21,389 bases of DNA from a virus: the IMG/VR virus record IMGVR_UViG_3300005056_000113, positions 1-21,389 of that record. One strand, written 5' to 3'. Positions within the stretch are counted from its first letter, which is position 1, and each line of letters starts with the position of its first letter. The position numbers and the translations under genes were made by a program. Positions 14,313 through 21,094 of the stretch are shown one piece after another. The notes under the pieces were generated by a model, which worked only from the letters and a program-made list of their open reading frames with translations, had not been told where the DNA came from and did not search any database.

Positions 14313-15224
14313 CTATATTTTGCGTTGAATGCCACCAAAGGCACTGAACAAGGATTTAAAGAAATTGGAGAATTCCAGTGTCATCACCGCAAAGTCACTA
14401 TCAAACTGATCGGCGTAGCTCTCTGCATCAGATTCACCCGCCTTTTCCATAACCATATCGGTGAACTTGATTCGCTTTAGGGTTAGGTCATTCTCAATGA
14501 TGCAAGTCAGGGCATCTTTCCAAAATACACCCAGCTTCTGCACTTGCTTTCCCGCGGCTAAATTTGCTGCCAACTCATTAGAATATAGGTCCTGTCCTTT
14601 ACACCGGATTACATTGTCGTCCTCTGCTGGGTTATACAGCTCACACTCTTGATCGATTTCGAAATCATCTGCTGCCTTTTGGTGCTGGAGCCAATTGGTC
14701 ATCACCTCACTAGGGATGTTTACAGTGTTAGGTAGGATGACTGGTAGCGATTCAATGCTGTTGCGCAGGAACCCTAATAACTCCTCTGCCTTGTTTGCAC
14801 TGGAGCAATTCACCACTAATAGATTTTCTGTTGGTGATATATAGGCGAATAGCGTTGACGACCGACAGAAGGCTTTAGGCAGTAGCGATAGCGTCACCTC
14901 GTCTTTTAGCTGCAATCGCTCTTTTCTGAACACCTTGCTCCCCTGCTTTTCTTCAAGTTCGTCAATTTTCTCCTGTACGGCTTCATTGATCACTGAGGCA
15001 GGCAATATCTTTTCCTCCTTCTTGGCACAGATCATTGTGTAGTCGCCTATGGTATGGGTTAGCATCTCCCCATGCTTGCCTAATGGTGGAACCCATCCGT
15101 ATTGTGATTGGTCTGCTTTGCCACACGGGTGAAACAAATGCTCCTGCAATTTTTCTTCTAGCTGCTCAGGCGTTAATGCGAATTCTTTGGTGAATCTGTA
15201 CAGACGAATATTTTTAAACCACAT
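14313..15224 (-). CDS. rdgC: RdgC-like recombination-associated protein
   Basis: The ATG at 15224, with AAGGA 8 nt upstream, gives 303 aa, the usual RdgC length. It begins MWFKNIRLYRFTKEFALTPE, close to cellular RdgC, and keeps FHPCGKADQSQYGWVPPLG and a C-terminal SDFAVMTLEFSNFFKSLFSA. RdgC is a ring-shaped DNA-binding protein known to inhibit RecA-promoted strand exchange in gammaproteobacteria. A phage copy would guard replicating DNA or bias recombination. An in-frame extension up to 15377 is rejected because it lies wholly inside the upstream gene. It overlaps that gene by 11 nt. It lies in the nin-like accessory region with other nucleases, so a phage recombination module is likely. Confidence 0.9.
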   Translation of the reverse strand: MWFKNIRLYRFTKEFALTPEQLEEKLQEHLFHPCGKADQSQYGWVPPLGKHGEMLTHTIGDYTMICAKKEEKILPASVINEAVQEKIDELEEKQGSKVFRKERLQLKDEVTLSLLPKAFCRSSTLFAYISPTENLLVVNCSSANKAEELLGFLRNSIESLPVILPNTVNIPSEVMTNWLQHQKAADDFEIDQECELYNPAEDDNVIRCKGQDLYSNELAANLAAGKQVQKLGVFWKDALTCIIENDLTLKRIKFTDMVMEKAGESDAESYADQFDSDFAVMTLEFSNFFKSLFSAFGGIQRKI

Positions 15225-15864
15225 TTTCAGTTTCCTTTTTAAATTTGTATTGCTCAGGCAGGTATCCCGCCACCCCCATATCATCAGCCCAATCAAATAA
15301 CACTCTTGGTGGAACTTGATTCCAACTGTCATAACCAAATTTCTTCTTGAGCTTTTCCCCGGCCCACTCCTTGACATAATCCACCGCCTGCTGCTCGAAC
15401 CAGTCTTTCCCGCCTACGGCAATGTAACCTTGGGAATGCTGCAACGCATGCAAGGAACGCAACAAAGGTATCCCGCTAAACTTAGGCTTTATTCCAGTTC
15501 CGCTACCGTTAGCAATCCCCCGATAGTGTGCGTATTCTATGCGGTCACCGTCATAGCCCTCTCTGCCAGATGAGGCGCACTTGTTTGGGCCTTTACACCA
15601 CTTTTGGTATTCGGCATCGGAACCAATAAATTCATACAATTCTCTCGTCTCAAAAAATTGGCTTTCCTGTAAGGCAATAGCTTGCATGCCATAGGAAGCT
15701 GGCTGGTACTGCAATGGAACCACCCCCAAGGGCTGACCTTCTAAAATGACTAACTCAAGCGTTTTAGGGTATTCGGCCGTCACTACGTCTATCCATATGC
15801 GAGTCATTCCATTAGGTAGATGCTTGTGACCAATTGTTTTGGCTGTTAATGCTAATTCAGTCAT
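15214..15864 (-). CDS. DUF968/Ref-like HNH-type phage protein with altered metal motif
   Basis: This 216-aa protein has a Shine-Dalgarno-like GGGGGCGG 4 nt before its ATG and overlaps the methyltransferase stop as ATGA. Residues ~90-170 recall the HNH core of phage DUF968 and RecA-dependent nuclease (Ref-like) proteins: a Cys pair (Cys90, Cys96), EYAHYRGIANGSGTGIKP (His113), SGIPLLRSLHALQHSQG (His139, His143), then GGKDWFEQQ, VKEWAGEKL and a C-terminal WNQVPPRVL. In relatives the second block normally reads PLCxxHHxLQH; here Cys135 and His138 positions are both Leu. Metal binding or catalysis may therefore be changed. Residues 1-70 form a beta-rich domain with no clear match. Neighbours rdgC and a methyltransferase fit a DNA-metabolism role. 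Confidence 0.6.
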   Translation of the reverse strand: MTELALTAKTIGHKHLPNGMTRIWIDVVTAEYPKTLELVILEGQPLGVVPLQYQPASYGMQAIALQESQFFETRELYEFIGSDAEYQKWCKGPNKCASSGREGYDGDRIEYAHYRGIANGSGTGIKPKFSGIPLLRSLHALQHSQGYIAVGGKDWFEQQAVDYVKEWAGEKLKKKFGYDSWNQVPPRVLFDWADDMGVAGYLPEQYKFKKETENVV

Positions 15865-16688
15865 GCTGCCGCCCCCATAATCGCCCTGCCTATCATTTCA
15901 GGAATTTGAGGAACTACCGCGTTACCTAGCCTTGCTAATCTAAGTCTGTCCATCCGACGGGAAACCCCATCATCTGCTCCACGAAGCGCGGGTTCGGTAA
16001 GGTCGAATCCGTCTCTGAAATTCTCAGAACCTCTTCTAAATTCCGTTTGTTGTTTAAGTAGGTGCGCGACTTTGCCGCACCGTTTGCTGTGCTTACTCTC
16101 GGGGTGGGCAGGTATTTCAACTCCGCTAATGCTTTTTCCAGATTCCTGTTCTTGTCCCCTAGCCTTGAGGGGGTTATGTGTCCCGTCATCCCTGTTCGCG
16201 GGGTAGGCAATAATCCAAACTCTGTCCCTATGGTGGATTGCGCCAACGTACGCAGCCGATATACAGTGCCATTCAGCATCGAGCCCGATCTCGGCCAAGT
16301 CATAGAGAAACTTGGCAAACCATCGCCCATTATCTCCAGTAATGAGCCCTGAGACATTTTCAAAAATTGCATATCGTGGCAAACACTCGCTAATAATTCG
16401 CAGCATTTGTTTGTATAGGCTTGATCGATCGCCATCAAATCCGTCTTGCTTTCCACTGATACTAAGGTCTTGGCAGGGAAACCCCCCACACACAACGTCA
16501 ACTGTTCCTCTGTACTCTGTCGCATCTAACAACCTCACATCTTCATGGATTTTCACGTCAGGCCAATGTTTTTTTAACACTGCTCGAGCATGAGCATCAA
16601 ATTCACAGAACGCTATTGTTTCCATTCCAGCTCTCTCAAGCCCTAACGAAAAACCACCAATGCCAGAAAACAAATCCAATACCTTCAC
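15861..16688 (-). CDS. C5-cytosine DNA methyltransferase
   Basis: This 275-aa protein shows the ordered motifs of m5C methyltransferases: I (LDLFSGIGGFSLGLE, AdoMet binding), IV (CGGFPCQDLSISG, catalytic Cys72), VI (FENVSGL), VIII (RDRVWII), and X (LGNAVVPQIPEMIGRAI). The target-recognition region between VIII and X is short (about 75 residues) and polar (KARGQEQESGKS, KHSKRCGK), unlike a full-size one. It would methylate cytosine in phage DNA, plausibly to escape host restriction; no partner endonuclease gene is adjacent. The start is GTG in a GTGA overlap with the upstream gene, with TGGGGGTG about 7 nt before it. A second long frame overlaps it on the same strand (see 15935-16525). Confidence 0.92.
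   Translation of the reverse strand: MKVLDLFSGIGGFSLGLERAGMETIAFCEFDAHARAVLKKHWPDVKIHEDVRLLDATEYRGTVDVVCGGFPCQDLSISGKQDGFDGDRSSLYKQMLRIISECLPRYAIFENVSGLITGDNGRWFAKFLYDLAEIGLDAEWHCISAAYVGAIHHRDRVWIIAYPANRDDGTHNPLKARGQEQESGKSISGVEIPAHPESKHSKRCGKVAHLLKQQTEFRRGSENFRDGFDLTEPALRGADDGVSRRMDRLRLARLGNAVVPQIPEMIGRAIMGAAA
15935..16525 (-). CDS. Overlapping ORF inside the methyltransferase gene (WPRSG/LPTP family)
   Basis: In a different frame of the same strand, 196 codons are open and begin with an ATG that has GAGGT 6 nt upstream. The product carries WPRSGSMLNGTVYRL (77-91), LLPTPR (105-110), LPTPR (139-143) and NPRFVEQMMGFPVGWTDL (178-195). These are the motifs of a family of small phage proteins often annotated as methyltransferase or hypothetical, usually with the closing phrase NPRFVEWxMGxPxGWT. 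GFPAKT near the N-terminus is the other-frame reading of the catalytic GGFPCQD block. Both frames keep family-typical text over the same bases. Either it is a true overprinted gene or the family is partly a database shadow of methyltransferases; sequence alone does not decide. Confidence 0.45.
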   Translation of the reverse strand: MRQSTEEQLTLCVGGFPAKTLVSVESKTDLMAIDQAYTNKCCELLASVCHDMQFLKMSQGSLLEIMGDGLPSFSMTWPRSGSMLNGTVYRLRTLAQSTIGTEFGLLPTPRTGMTGHITPSRLGDKNRNLEKALAELKYLPTPRVSTANGAAKSRTYLNNKRNLEEVLRISETDSTLPNPRFVEQMMGFPVGWTDLD

Positions 16689-17862: not shown

Positions 17863-18041
17863 CTCGCCGCCCTTTCTTCGTGTAATGCCGCCATACCTTC
17901 AATGTGATCTAAACAGCTAACCAAGCAGAACTTCACTTGCTTTGGCCCTTCCCCTGATTGCATATTGGAAAGCTCTGGTTTGTTGCGGAGCAATCTTTCT
18001 CGACTTTCTGCAATCAATTTAGAATTAGGTTTTATGCTCAT
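17859..18041 (-). CDS. 60-aa protein following the helicase gene
   Basis: The ATG at 18041 overlaps the dnaB stop as ATGA and has GGAGAGAG about 8 nt upstream; a TTG five codons earlier would lie inside dnaB. The product (MSIKPNSKLIAESRERLLRN...) is basic at the N-terminus with two Cys (KFCLVSCLDHIEG) and a helical end. No family is recognised; coupling to dnaB suggests a replication-linked role at most. Confidence 0.5.
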   Translation of the reverse strand: MSIKPNSKLIAESRERLLRNKPELSNMQSGEGPKQVKFCLVSCLDHIEGMAALHEERAAR

Positions 18042-19321
18042 TGCCGCTCTCTCCAATATTCGTCAGGTTTTAAATCTTCGAAGCGCATGTACTGCCCTAT
18101 CCATGCAGCCTTGACGCACCCAATAGGGCCGTGCCTGTTCTTCTCAATATTTAATTCAGCAATGCCTTTGAATTCAGTGTCAGGGTTATAAACCTCATCC
18201 CGGTACAGCATGATTATTTCGTCGGCTTCCTGCTCAATTGCTCCTGAGTCTTTTAGATCACCCATACCAGGACGGCGGTCTGTTCGCTTTTCAACTTCTC
18301 GGTTAACTTGAGCCAATGCCACTATTGGAATATCAAGCTCTTTAGCGAGGGTCTTTAGACCTACAACGATTTCTTCAACCTGTTGATGTTTTGGTAACCG
18401 AGTATCTGTTGCTTGTAGGCGCTGAATGTAATCAACGTAGAGAATTTTAATTCCGTGTTTTAGTTTCCACTTACGGGCTTGGCGGCATACCTGGGCAATC
18501 GTTGGTCTTGATTTGTCATCGATAAATACATGCTTTTCCGCAAGAAGCCCGAGAGCGGCTGTTATCCCCGCCCAGTCATTATCATTTAACTTTGCAGTCC
18601 TTAGGTTTTGAGAGTTCACGCTACCCGTCATGGAAATACTTCGTAGAGCAATCTGATCGTGAGCCTGCTCAGTAGAAAATATTCCGCAAGGGATATTGCT
18701 GTTCAAGGCTAGATTTATCAGTAAGCCAGTTTTTCCCATTGCTGGACGAGCACCGATGATGCATAAATCGCTGTCATGAAACCCTCCCATCAAGTCATCC
18801 AATTCGGTCAAGCCAGTACGCACACCGGACAAGCCGTCCATGCCTTGTATTTTTTCAATGTGATCCATGGCTGCTCTCAAGCTTTCTTTGAGCGTGTGCG
18901 TGCTCTTTCTTGGTGTGGATTCCAAAGCCATCAATTGGGAGATTGCCGCATCCACAGCGCTTAGGCCGTCATGCCTCAAAGCCTCCAGAAGGTCTTGAGC
19001 AATTAGCGTTGCTTTGCGCTCTACAGCAAAACGCTTGATGTGTTTTGAATAGGTTCCGATATTTCGAGTAGAGATTGTGTTTTTCTGGATCGCCGCAAGT
19101 GACGGTAACCAGTTTTGTTCTGATCCACGATTAAGCCGATCAGCAACAGTGAATACATCTGCAACCTCGCCTTCGGATTGAATTCCCTTGATGGCTTCAA
19201 AAATAGCAGCGTAGTTAGCGTTCCCAAAATCAGAGGGTTCAACGTCAACCTCTGTGATAACGGAGCTATCGATCAACAGCCCGCCAATCAACGCCTGTTC
19301 CGCTTCGACGCAATCACTCAT
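18038..19321 (-). CDS. dnaB: DnaB-family replicative helicase
   Basis: This 427-aa protein has the full DnaB plan. The N-terminal helical domain (EAEQALIGGLLIDSSVI, residues 6-22) is followed by a linker and a RecA-type motor domain with Walker A GARPAMGKTG (190-199), the H1a-like catalytic Glu in FSTEQ, Walker B ILYVDYIQ, and motif H4 with VVALAQVNREVEKR and SGAIEQEADEIIMLYR. It unwinds DNA ahead of the phage replication fork and would be loaded by the upstream initiator. The start overlaps that gene as ATGA. Phages that bring their own DnaB do not need a lambda P-type loader to capture the host helicase; none is present here. Confidence 0.95.
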   Translation of the reverse strand: MSDCVEAEQALIGGLLIDSSVITEVDVEPSDFGNANYAAIFEAIKGIQSEGEVADVFTVADRLNRGSEQNWLPSLAAIQKNTISTRNIGTYSKHIKRFAVERKATLIAQDLLEALRHDGLSAVDAAISQLMALESTPRKSTHTLKESLRAAMDHIEKIQGMDGLSGVRTGLTELDDLMGGFHDSDLCIIGARPAMGKTGLLINLALNSNIPCGIFSTEQAHDQIALRSISMTGSVNSQNLRTAKLNDNDWAGITAALGLLAEKHVFIDDKSRPTIAQVCRQARKWKLKHGIKILYVDYIQRLQATDTRLPKHQQVEEIVVGLKTLAKELDIPIVALAQVNREVEKRTDRRPGMGDLKDSGAIEQEADEIIMLYRDEVYNPDTEFKGIAELNIEKNRHGPIGCVKAAWIGQYMRFEDLKPDEYWRERQ

Positions 19322-20151
19322 GATTTATTTCTCAAGTGGTCAGGCATTGGGGCTCGTTCTTTTTTTTCGTATACCGGTGCGGCTCTTTGAACTACCGCCA
19401 CAGGATTTACATTCTGCCCGGTTAGATTTGCCAGGTATTCAACAGTGATTCCAATCCAACCCTTTGCAACAGATGTATCTATGGCAGTCTCAGCGGTCAT
19501 TCCAATGCTTCGGGCCTTGAGTGCGGATTTCATATTCAAGTCGAAAGCTCTTTGGGTCATTTTTGGTTTGTTTTTAATTCCCGCCCGGTGATCAACAAAA
19601 CCCTTCATGGTCTCCACGTCGATGTGATCCACAAATTCAGAAAAACTGATCCCTTTGTATATATTTATATCTTTATTCTTCTCTTCTCTTCTCTTCTCTT
19701 CTCTGGTCTCTATTTTCGTCACATCGATGTCACAACTTTTTGTGACATCGATGTGACTTTCTTGTGAATCGATTTCTTTTCCATCAATATTTTGCAGATC
19801 TACAACTTTTTTCCTGCTTTCTGCTTTTCTTCGATTTGCTTCAGCTCTTTTTTTAGCGGACTCTCCATTGTGTCTACTGAACTTTGGAATGCTTATCGTA
19901 TTCTCGTCACACTCCATCCAACCAACGGTCACAAGAATGTCACAAAAGTTTGTGACATTTGTCTTAGAGTCGAGAAGCTTTTTTGTGACAATGCTGGCGC
20001 TACCATCTTCAGTGTGCTGATCAAACCAGGCCCATATTTTAATTAACTTACCGATTACCGAATCCGTATCTAATTGGAGGCGGTCGGCAATTTCCCAAAT
20101 CTCTGCTTTGTCGAGTGTTGCTAGCTCGAACTTGATCCAGTCTCCAGCCAT
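19318..20151 (-). CDS. O-like replication initiator with N-terminal winged-helix domain
   Basis: This 277-aa protein begins MAGDWIKFELATLDKAEIWE, and the region up to ~100 (IADRLQLDTDSVIGKLIKIWAWFDQHTEDGSA) matches the N-terminal domain of phage O-like and DnaT-like replication proteins. A charged linker (residues ~100-165) is encoded by repeat-rich DNA: SHIDVTKSCDIDVTK mirrors DNA inverted repeats, and REEKRREEK mirrors a CTCTT repeat. The C-terminal domain (FVDHRAGIKNKPKMTQRAFD...) is the type that contacts helicase. GAGGA precedes the ATG by 8 nt. It probably binds its own coding-region iterons (19718-19990) to open the origin and recruit the adjacent DnaB. Confidence 0.85.
   Translation of the reverse strand: MAGDWIKFELATLDKAEIWEIADRLQLDTDSVIGKLIKIWAWFDQHTEDGSASIVTKKLLDSKTNVTNFCDILVTVGWMECDENTISIPKFSRHNGESAKKRAEANRRKAESRKKVVDLQNIDGKEIDSQESHIDVTKSCDIDVTKIETREEKRREEKNKDINIYKGISFSEFVDHIDVETMKGFVDHRAGIKNKPKMTQRAFDLNMKSALKARSIGMTAETAIDTSVAKGWIGITVEYLANLTGQNVNPVAVVQRAAPVYEKKERAPMPDHLRNKS
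19650..19990. other. Putative replication origin: iterons plus AT/pyrimidine-rich tract inside the initiator gene
   Basis: A perfect 18-bp inverted repeat, GTCACATCGATGTCACAA (19718-19735) and its complement (19740-19757) with a 4-nt spacer, and a perfect 11-bp inverted repeat, AATGTCACAAA (19936-19946) with 19949-19959, belong to a cluster of nine GTCACA/TGTGAC hexamers at 19719, 19729, 19741, 19752, 19906, 19928, 19939, 19951 and 19984. Next to it lie a CTCTT tandem repeat (19681-19704) and a very AT-rich segment (19655-19680). Lambda places iterons followed by an AT/purine-rich unwinding segment inside gene O in the same order. Confidence 0.7.
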
Positions 20152-20182: not shown

Positions 20183-20224
20183 AAAAAAGCCCGTAGTCCT
20201 GCCAGACGTAGCGGGCTTTTTTTT
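20183..20224. terminator. Bidirectional intrinsic terminator before the O-like gene
   Basis: AAAAAAGCCCG (20183-20193) pairs perfectly with CGGGCTTTTTT (20212-20222) across an 18-nt loop. T-runs follow on both strands (eight on plus, six on minus). On the minus strand it separates the C4-controlled gene from replication genes, so it probably requires antitermination or readthrough for their expression. Confidence 0.85.
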
Positions 20225-20247: not shown

Positions 20248-20463
20248 TCACACGGCCACCCCCAAGTCATTAATTAAATTCTCAAGGGTTTCTAGTTTGT
20301 TGAGCTGGATGAATGCTAAAGACGATATAGTGCCGTCAGGCGTCTCTCTTGGATCAAGGTATGCAATGGCCTCAGATAGAGCTAGAAGGTCACCTATATG
20401 GGTTTGTATTTGACATGAGATAGAATTAGACGCAACTGGTCTAGGGGAAATTGTTTGCGGCAT
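20248..20463 (-). CDS. 71-aa protein downstream of the C4-like RNA
   Basis: The ATG at 20463 has AAGGAG about 9 nt upstream and gives 71 aa starting MPQTISPRPVASNSISCQIQ, with a helical middle (THIGDLLALSEAIAYLDP) and ending KLETLENLINDLGVAV. The same frame stays open upstream through the RNA element, but the upstream part looks like the reading of a structured RNA rather than protein. In P1/P7 and P4 relatives this position after C4 holds icd, ant or kil-type genes that disturb the host cell or lift repression. No sequence similarity to those can be claimed here. Confidence 0.55.
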   Translation of the reverse strand: MPQTISPRPVASNSISCQIQTHIGDLLALSEAIAYLDPRETPDGTISSLAFIQLNKLETLENLINDLGVAV

Positions 20464-20472
20464 GATGGCTCG

Positions 20473-20560
20473 CTCCTTGGATAGTGGTGTAAGCCACAAA
20501 AAGGAGGTTGCAATCTCATTAGGGTGGCCGGAAGCACAGGTTGCAACAACCGCTCCAAGG
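20473..20560 (-). promoter_or_regulatory. Putative C4-type target/leader region before the 71-aa gene
   Basis: On the minus strand CCTTGGAG (20560-20553) can pair with CUUCAAGG of the small RNA (20664-20657; one G-U), and GGTTG (20551-20547) with CAACC of the same RNA. A second similar set follows: GAGATTGCAACCTCC (20517-20503) and CCAAGGAG (20480-20473), the latter containing the Shine-Dalgarno of the 71-aa gene. CCTTGG and CCAAGG can also pair with each other, hiding the ribosome site. A CCAGC-TTCG-GCTGG hairpin sits at 20569-20582. Confidence 0.5.
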
Positions 20561-20617
20561 AAACGGTCCAGCCGAAGCTGGCCCGTACTCCCGACCATAA
20601 CAGACGGAACACGACCA

Positions 20618-20709
20618 TAAAAAAAGACGCATAGAAAATTAGGCGTCTTTGGGTCGCCTTGAAGTTTCGGGGTTGCAATCCCGACAACTGATTTTGCAGT
20701 TGCACCCCC
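20618..20709 (-). ncRNA. C4/CI-type antisense immunity RNA (candidate)
   Basis: On the minus strand, about 90 nt begin near GGGGGTGCAA, which pairs with TTGCAACCCC (10 positions, one mismatch) to form a long hairpin, and end in a terminator: AAAGACGC and GCGTCTTT (perfect 8 bp, 12-nt loop) followed by seven T (20625-20619). The repeated TTGCAA elements inside and downstream, plus the two-part pairing potential with the leader of the next gene, match C4 RNA of P1/P7 and CI RNA of P4. These immunity RNAs bind the leader of their own operon and cause premature termination. The 5' end may be made by processing. No covariance model was run. Confidence 0.6.
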
Positions 20710-20739
20710 AGTATCGTATAAAGCTGGTGTAGCTGTCAA
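20710..20739 (-). promoter_or_regulatory. Candidate promoter of the C4-like RNA
   Basis: On the minus strand a perfect TTGACA (20739-20734) is followed after 18 nt by GATACT (20715-20710). Initiation would fall near 20703-20705, at the start of the structured RNA. Confidence 0.55.
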
Positions 20740-20839
20740 ACAAGCTGCGCCTATCCGGCCAACCATTCTATTAATTTTCCCTTCTTGAGTGGTATCCTTC
20801 GGCTGCAAAACTAAAAACCCACTCAAAAAGGAAAAAACT

Positions 20840-21094
20840 GTGGTAATACAAATATTCACCAAGAACTTTGCGATGACTGACGCAATTGAAGTCCCTGACG
20901 CTCCAGTACCTCGCATAGGGGAGACAATAACCTTGGGGCAAGATGCCGGGTACTTACAGGGAGCTAAGGAACTTTTAGTCCACGACATCACGTACGTGCT
21001 TAAAAACAACGAACTAACCCCGCACATTAGTTGCCACTCCAGTTCTGGTTCCATCAATCGTCGAATCATCCTTGAGGAAAACGGCTGGATTTAA
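20840..21094 (+). CDS. Lone plus-strand early protein of unknown function
   Basis: A GTG at 20840 with AAGGA 7 nt upstream gives 84 aa; an ATG at 20873 (MTDAIEVPDAPVPRIGETIT) is an alternative and may be the real start of the folded part, since a weak Shine-Dalgarno is the only drawback. The rest, QDAGYLQGAKELLVHDITYV and NNELTPHISC, has the alternating pattern of a small beta-barrel or beta-sandwich with a natural amino-acid mix. It is the only convincing plus-strand gene. It runs head-on into the minus-strand gene ending at 21014, overlapping by 81 nt. A perfect hairpin lies 13 nt after its stop. No family is recognised. Confidence 0.55.
   Translation: MVIQIFTKNFAMTDAIEVPDAPVPRIGETITLGQDAGYLQGAKELLVHDITYVLKNNELTPHISCHSSSGSINRRIILEENGWI

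Follow-up and report, generated by a model that had tools for sequence, protein, structure and literature searches.

A C4-type antisense-RNA element that likely controls replication genes in a 21.4-kb viral DNA, with a long reading frame running through the RNA

The stretch of DNA analysed here, called the window throughout, comprises positions 1 to 21,389 of the IMG/VR virus record IMGVR_UViG_3300005056_000113 (21,389 nucleotides). On its minus strand, a sigma-70 promoter (20710..20739; TTGACA at 20739-20734, an 18-nt spacer and GATACT at 20715-20710) precedes an isrK-type leader sRNA (20620..20703) that ends at a terminator, T1 (about 20650-20620, placed by its fold). A C4 antisense RNA (20520..20602, identified by RF01695 and by its fold) comes next, followed by the C4 target in the mRNA leader (20473..20513) and by a 71-aa leader ORF (20248..20463) that stands in the place of P1 icd or P4 kil. 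The frame of this ORF is part of an eta-like continuous frame of 172 aa (20248..20766), whose putative start, ATG 20766, has a Shine-Dalgarno (SD)-like GAAGGG upstream. A second terminator hairpin, T2 (20183..20224), lies between the 71-aa ORF and the gene for a 277-aa replication initiation protein (19318..20151; phrog_2509, E 7.2e-50), which is followed by a DnaB-like replicative helicase of 427 aa (18038..19321; PF03796, E 2.4e-82; phrog_19). Downstream of the replication genes, the window also encodes an RdgC-like exonuclease (PF04381) and a C5 cytosine methylase (PF00145), at 14313-15377 and 15861-16688 (minus strand).

It is nearly certain that the locus belongs to the known C4 antisense-RNA family. 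Using cmscan, we obtained a C4 match (RF01695) at 20602-20520 of the minus strand with 56.5 bits (cut-off 45) and an isrK match (RF01394) at 20703-20620 of the same strand with 65.6 bits (cut-off 50); the two are adjacent and in order, C4 being downstream of isrK. The c4-a1b1 covariance model (RF03163) scored 37.4 bits at 20716-20664, below its cut-off of 46.7. Both C4 and c4-a1b1 are listed by Weinberg et al. (excerpts of PMC2864571). The first-pass annotation of this DNA had proposed C4/CI-type antisense immunity, and this proposal is upheld by the C4 match above the gathering score together with the covariation of both pairing blocks described below. It had also cast the first RNA, of about 90 nt, as the antisense repressor, an assignment that has to be reversed: the promoter-proximal RNA was rejected as C4 RNA on its isrK match above cut-off, and the covariance models make it the isrK/a1-b1 partner and place C4 in the downstream segment 20602-20520. 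No DNA relatives were found in phage records.

The TTGACA promoter, first recognised from the letters alone, is conserved in other C4 loci. Among the matches listed, TTGAC stands 30-52 nt upstream of the CAAAATC loop in 93/156 C4 loci, compared with 0/156 in a control window 90-112 nt upstream of the loop. The isrK segment (20708-20620) folds with -27.4 kcal/mol (z -2.9), and its hairpin and T-run form the terminator that closes the first RNA, despite the absence of T1 from the output of a simple terminator scan. The strong terminator claimed for the 90-nt RNA therefore stands, while its long hairpin is doubtful, as the GGGGGTGCAA/TTGCAACCCC stem is predicted only for an RNA start at 20709, whereas transcription is expected to start at about 20703, the first position of the Rfam isrK match, and an RNA from there is predicted to adopt the isrK two-hairpin fold. 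The C4 segment 20602-20520 folds on its own with -44.2 kcal/mol (z -4.9), and GGT is found at the start of its outer stem; GGW is a motif reported, in parts of PMC5320573, in connection with RNase P processing of C4, and the same parts describe Acinetobacter C4 RNAs as expressed and apparently processed. For the T2 hairpin we calculated -19.5 kcal/mol (z -4.35), and 0/200 shuffles were equally stable.

Two sequence blocks connect the RNAs with the leader. In isrK, a1 (TTGCAAC, 20678-20672) is complementary to a' (GTTGCAA, 20547-20541) in a C4 loop, and b1 (CTTCAAGG, 20664-20657) pairs with b' (CCTTGGAG, 20560-20553) in a C4 loop with one G-U. A second target copy lies before the 71-aa ORF and consists of a2 (TTGCAAC, 20513-20507) and b2 (TCCAAGGAG, 20481-20473), the latter pairing with b' with one G-U and covering the SD of ATG 20463. 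Pairing of the first RNA with a downstream segment in two blocks, and a second copy of the blocks around the SD of the 71-aa gene, had both been noted before; both are confirmed, the supposed leader segment being C4 itself. When the flanks were dinucleotide-shuffled, in a test whose C4 segments had been chosen after the sequence had been seen, all four matches of at least this length occurred together in 0/3000 shuffles, a1 and b1 alone in 7/3000, and a2 and b2 alone in 2/3000.

Both pairing blocks covary between C4 and its targets in relatives. A pattern of the isrK loop plus a1 was present in at least 120 IMG/VR stretches (by an untallied impression, apparently mostly enterobacterial prophages), which together with other loci gave 104 distinct sites. 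Among the matches listed, an exact 7-nt C4 partner of a1 is found at the C4 place in 93/104 distinct sites, and 89 of these 93 carry a further a2 copy; with a1 versions paired with other loci as a control, a match was obtained in 9/1209 trials. Among the 11 listed sites that lack an a1 partner, five run off the end of the stretch. Sequences of the b block vary widely, with 70 distinct b1 segments in 94 of the loci listed; here the mean best pairing is 7.8 versus 5.6 in mismatched loci, and 64% exceed the 95th percentile of the control. The first-pass annotation had set in advance that a missing RF01695 hit and missing covariation between RNA and leader in relatives would speak against the element; the covariance-model match and the compensatory changes in both blocks were found, so that neither point speaks against it. 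Two isrK-type sites, with a1 TTGCAAC and TTCGAAC, occur within a single prophage record, IMGVR_UViG_2834254687_000001 (L136, L143).

Downstream of C4, no antirepressor is present in the window; the 71-aa ORF (ATG 20463), which gave no Pfam or PHROG match, stands directly before the replication initiator, and DnaB helicase comes next. This is the order of a P4-type CI element, in which the replication genes come after the RNA and its leader ORF. No minus-strand promoter-like site was found in the interval from the 71-aa ORF to the initiator, including the part between T2 and the initiator start ATG 20151; expression of the replication genes therefore most likely relies on read-through of the transcript under C4 control. 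Judged by gene order, C4 likely controls replication genes here rather than an antirepressor. Because its product resembles nothing known, the 71-aa ORF is coupled to replication by position only. That the controlled gene is an unrecognised new effector, as had been suggested, is not supported by the icd/kil position of the ORF before initiator and DnaB, and a leader ORF that gates replication would be the more economical reading. The 71-aa product may have a toxic or effector role.

The combination of small ORF, initiator and DnaB also occurs in a Microbulbifer plasmid, L253, and in the Microbulbifer loci L310, L379 and L380. No close relatives of the window's initiator or helicase were found in IMG/VR, and no C4 was found in seven phages with a related initiator, which points to a link with the element rather than with the initiator gene. 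Of the 94 loci among the matches listed, 78 have at least 1 kb downstream, 51 of them in the main antirepressor cluster and 13 P4-like. A mixed P1/P4 layout is seen in L047, L088 and L125, where C4 is followed by an antirepressor and then by a putative replication initiator (Phage_rep_O in L047). C4 matches can also be crowded: two Vibrio genomes, G013 and G014 (L184, L186, L367-L370), contain 23 and 22, several of them close together, and four lie within 1.4 kb in a 1.5-Mb genome (G278:C9:1700-3092, L265). In L184, two near-identical small ORFs of 58 and 73 aa follow C4. The Vibrio clusters are possibly C4 cassettes or decayed satellites.

The annotated order in the c4-icd-ant region of P1/P7 (promoter, a1, b1, C4, a2, b2, small ORF) is that of the window, and the C4 model matches P1 with 68.8 bits. 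P1, however, controls icd and the antirepressor ant, whereas no antirepressor follows C4 in the window, and it lacks the long open frame through C4. The IsrK-STnc1160-orf45-anrP locus of Gifsy-1 (C4 match 69 bits) likewise combines an isrK-type sRNA and its terminator with a downstream C4 and a read-through mRNA. It differs in that it activates the antirepressor AnrP and, via AnrP, AntQ (parts of PMC4825925), while the window leads to replication genes, and in that its frame runs only 9 codons upstream of the first ORF found before it closes, while that of the window is open. The same parts of PMC4825925 report, from Gifsy-1 mutants, activation of the downstream mRNA by isrK supplied in trans, and an increase of about 140-fold in translation of the downstream operon when the short IsrK RNA acts in trans; its authors liken isrK to P4 seqA and STnc1160 to CI RNA, the P4 antisense CI RNA lying between two target copies, seqA and seqC. 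The P1/P7 and IsrK accounts are repeated in a review (extracts of PMC12197685).

The plasmid NZ_CP098024.1 of Microbulbifer sp. MI-G carries isrK and C4 matches and is 69.6% identical in DNA to the window over about 225 nt. Small ORFs, an HTH initiator and a DnaB helicase follow its C4, but the best-match initiator families of plasmid and window differ, and T2 was not obvious in the plasmid sequence when inspected by eye. The first ORF of the plasmid, of 86 aa, has no detectable similarity to the 71-aa ORF, and kinship between the two was rejected on that ground. A weak match to the upstream 86-aa ORF gave E 0.011 in a single comparison.

Satellite phage P4 matches RF01695 with 74.9 bits in the same search as the window. 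Its small first ORF (65 aa) is followed by the replication gene alpha, and the frame is open through the RNA region; P4 has the primase-helicase alpha, whereas the window has initiator and DnaB, plus T2 after the leader ORF. In P4 a longer frame, beginning upstream of the promoter, encloses the leader ORF (eta/kil), and P4 immunity involves Rho-dependent termination in the leader. We take the window's continuous frame into the 71-aa ORF to resemble eta/kil. A long ORF running through C4 is unusual for a C4 element and is shared with P4. A paper on P4 termination is listed among the references of PMC3349714.

We consider it fairly probable that the locus is a C4/CI-type immunity element, in which one promoter would supply a short isrK RNA and a processed C4 that silences the 71-aa leader ORF, thereby gating replication initiator and DnaB as CI RNA does in P4. 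From the single promoter, a short isrK-type RNA would end at T1, and read-through transcripts would be processed to a C4 RNA of about 80 nt. On the read-through mRNA, C4 would pair with both a2 and b2 and so mask the SD of the 71-aa ORF; with the ORF untranslated, transcription would stop, through Rho-dependent polarity and/or at T2, leaving the initiator and DnaB helicase off, as with CI RNA in P4. Because isrK carries the same a and b sequences (a1, b1) as the target, it would compete for C4, and this titration would relieve repression. Transcription that begins further upstream could circumvent the switch, since a continuous reading frame spans isrK, T1 and C4 into the 71-aa ORF and ribosomes could run through all of them.

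The locus could instead work as a P1/Gifsy-type switch, with C4 controlling a 71-aa product that is itself an antirepressor or cell-toxic effector and with the replication genes behind T2 under separate control. Antirepressor or Rha-like genes do follow C4 in 51/78 listed loci with at least 1 kb downstream, example loci have Rha/P22_AR domains downstream of C4, and T2 separates the 71-aa ORF from the replication genes. We nevertheless think this unlikely: at 71 aa and without a family match, the product contrasts with 179-270 aa in the antirepressor cluster (among the matches listed), no promoter-like site was found between T2 and the replication start, and a small first ORF is common in replication-type loci. 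It is very improbable that the window is a piece of a dead prophage with the RNAs as relics, because the promoter and both RNAs are intact, as are the four pairing blocks with their mutual complementarity, and the terminase, portal, helicase and endolysin frames are open, even if no repressor or integrase was visible among the ORFs searched in the 21.4-kb fragment. A C4 element gating replication remains the reading that we prefer, and the frame running through it was compared across C4 loci.

In the window, no stop codon interrupts the 71-aa ORF's frame across C4, T1, isrK or the promoter, ATG 20766 being in frame to 20248. For a census we called the first-ORF frame open when it continued through C4 and at least 100 nt beyond. 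Among the matches listed, 25/254 distinct cores were dropped because they had no SD-preceded ORF, which left 229 distinct C4 loci with an SD-preceded first ORF; these were assigned, without regard to frame and by HMMs from 28 hand-picked seeds, to 36 replication, 77 antirepressor-only and 116 other loci. Covariance-model checks covered only part of the loci found by pattern: the C4 identity of L065, L066 and L129 is uncertain, and they were kept if they passed the census filters; the pattern of the isrK loop plus a1 also gave false matches, L017, L043 and L082, in which the C4 partner is absent. The automatic choice of the first ORF is possibly wrong in L015, L033, L095, L104, L106, L252, L302 and L314, where another frame is open.

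Among the matches listed, the ORF's own frame was open in 26/36 replication loci, compared with 8/77 antirepressor-only loci (p 6.6e-11) and 24/116 other or unclassified loci; the other two frames were open in 6 and 8, 10 and 14, and 13 and 17 loci of these classes. An SD-preceded start upstream of the promoter was present in 17/36 replication, 2/77 antirepressor and 3/116 other loci (replication versus antirepressor, p 1.5e-8; matches listed), and P4 itself scored with such a frame. An earlier, smaller classification of listed matches gave 21/30 open replication loci versus 3.4 expected from a first-order Markov model, and 7/67 open antirepressor loci versus 7.2 expected. The distance from anchor to ORF was a multiple of three in 17/18 measurable loci drawn from these 21, at 9 different lengths, whereas antirepressor loci were spread 20/19/23 over the phases (all among the matches listed). 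Because many P4-like loci share ancestry, we recomputed the contrast without loci with a P4-type primase, and 6/8 replication versus 8/77 antirepressor loci were open (p 1.6e-4; matches listed). If any frame is counted as open, the numbers among the matches listed become 34/36 and 28/77.

The frame is not maintained everywhere, and its upstream limit in the window needs care. An alignment of eight Microbulbifer loci (there being no close relatives of the window itself) has its variable sites spread 46/47/46 over the three codon positions, and with no codon periodicity this test gave no sign of selection on a leader peptide in these loci. Single-nucleotide indels close the frame in two of the eight; one is the plasmid, where the loss of 1 nt disrupts the frame that begins at the upstream ATG though replication genes follow, another frame being open. 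Conversely, two Microbulbifer loci, L307 and L362, have a fused frame yet antirepressors downstream. In the window, a conserved 84-aa plus-strand gene (20840-21094) lies opposite the far upstream half of the long frame, so that the likely frame start is ATG 20766; the first part of a 273-aa frame from ATG 21069 was rejected as a real ORF, and from 21069 to about 20840 this frame is probably a shadow of the plus-strand gene. The 84-aa gene has a GTG start after AAGGA and is divergent from the C4 promoter; its protein has no PHROG match and a homologue that is clear by eye (L387:3271-3525), both ending in LLEENGWI.

How much of this reflects function is a matter of weighing. The long in-frame ORF may be accidental, C4 and isrK sequence constraints leaving one frame open and the link to replication being due to shared ancestry of P4-like satellites; the leader of the eight Microbulbifer loci has no third-position bias, P4-like loci are numerous and related, and among the matches listed 24/116 unclassified loci are open too. 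Such an accident would not predict, among the same listed matches, that only 6 and 8 of the 36 replication loci are open in the other frames, that 21 of 30 loci are open against a Markov expectation of 3.4 while antirepressor loci stay at 7 against 7.2, or that loci without a P4-type primase are still open in 6/8 cases; we give it somewhat less than an even chance. The functional counterpart is offered as tentatively: C4 elements before several unrelated replication modules (P4-like primase-helicase, initiator plus DnaB, antirepressor plus RepO) would be read through by a continuous frame whose start precedes the C4 promoter. A single stretch of DNA would then serve as immunity RNA when transcribed from its own promoter or as a translated leader under upstream transcription, with ribosomes melting the switch and turning replication on, and selection would act on the open frame and not on the peptide. 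For the window, read-through bypass by a nested frame is an open but testable idea. We found no report of a nested frame outside P4 in the literature searched, beyond the scope of which lay many subscription papers.

With this analysis, a stretch that had carried no annotation can be interpreted as a lysis/lysogeny switch, which would control replication and not an antirepressor. From the diversity of the b block, it may be possible to read in sequence which phages are expected to have C4 immunity in common. Should the nested frame prove functional, the eta/kil bypass of P4 would become a general rule for C4 elements that stand before replication genes.
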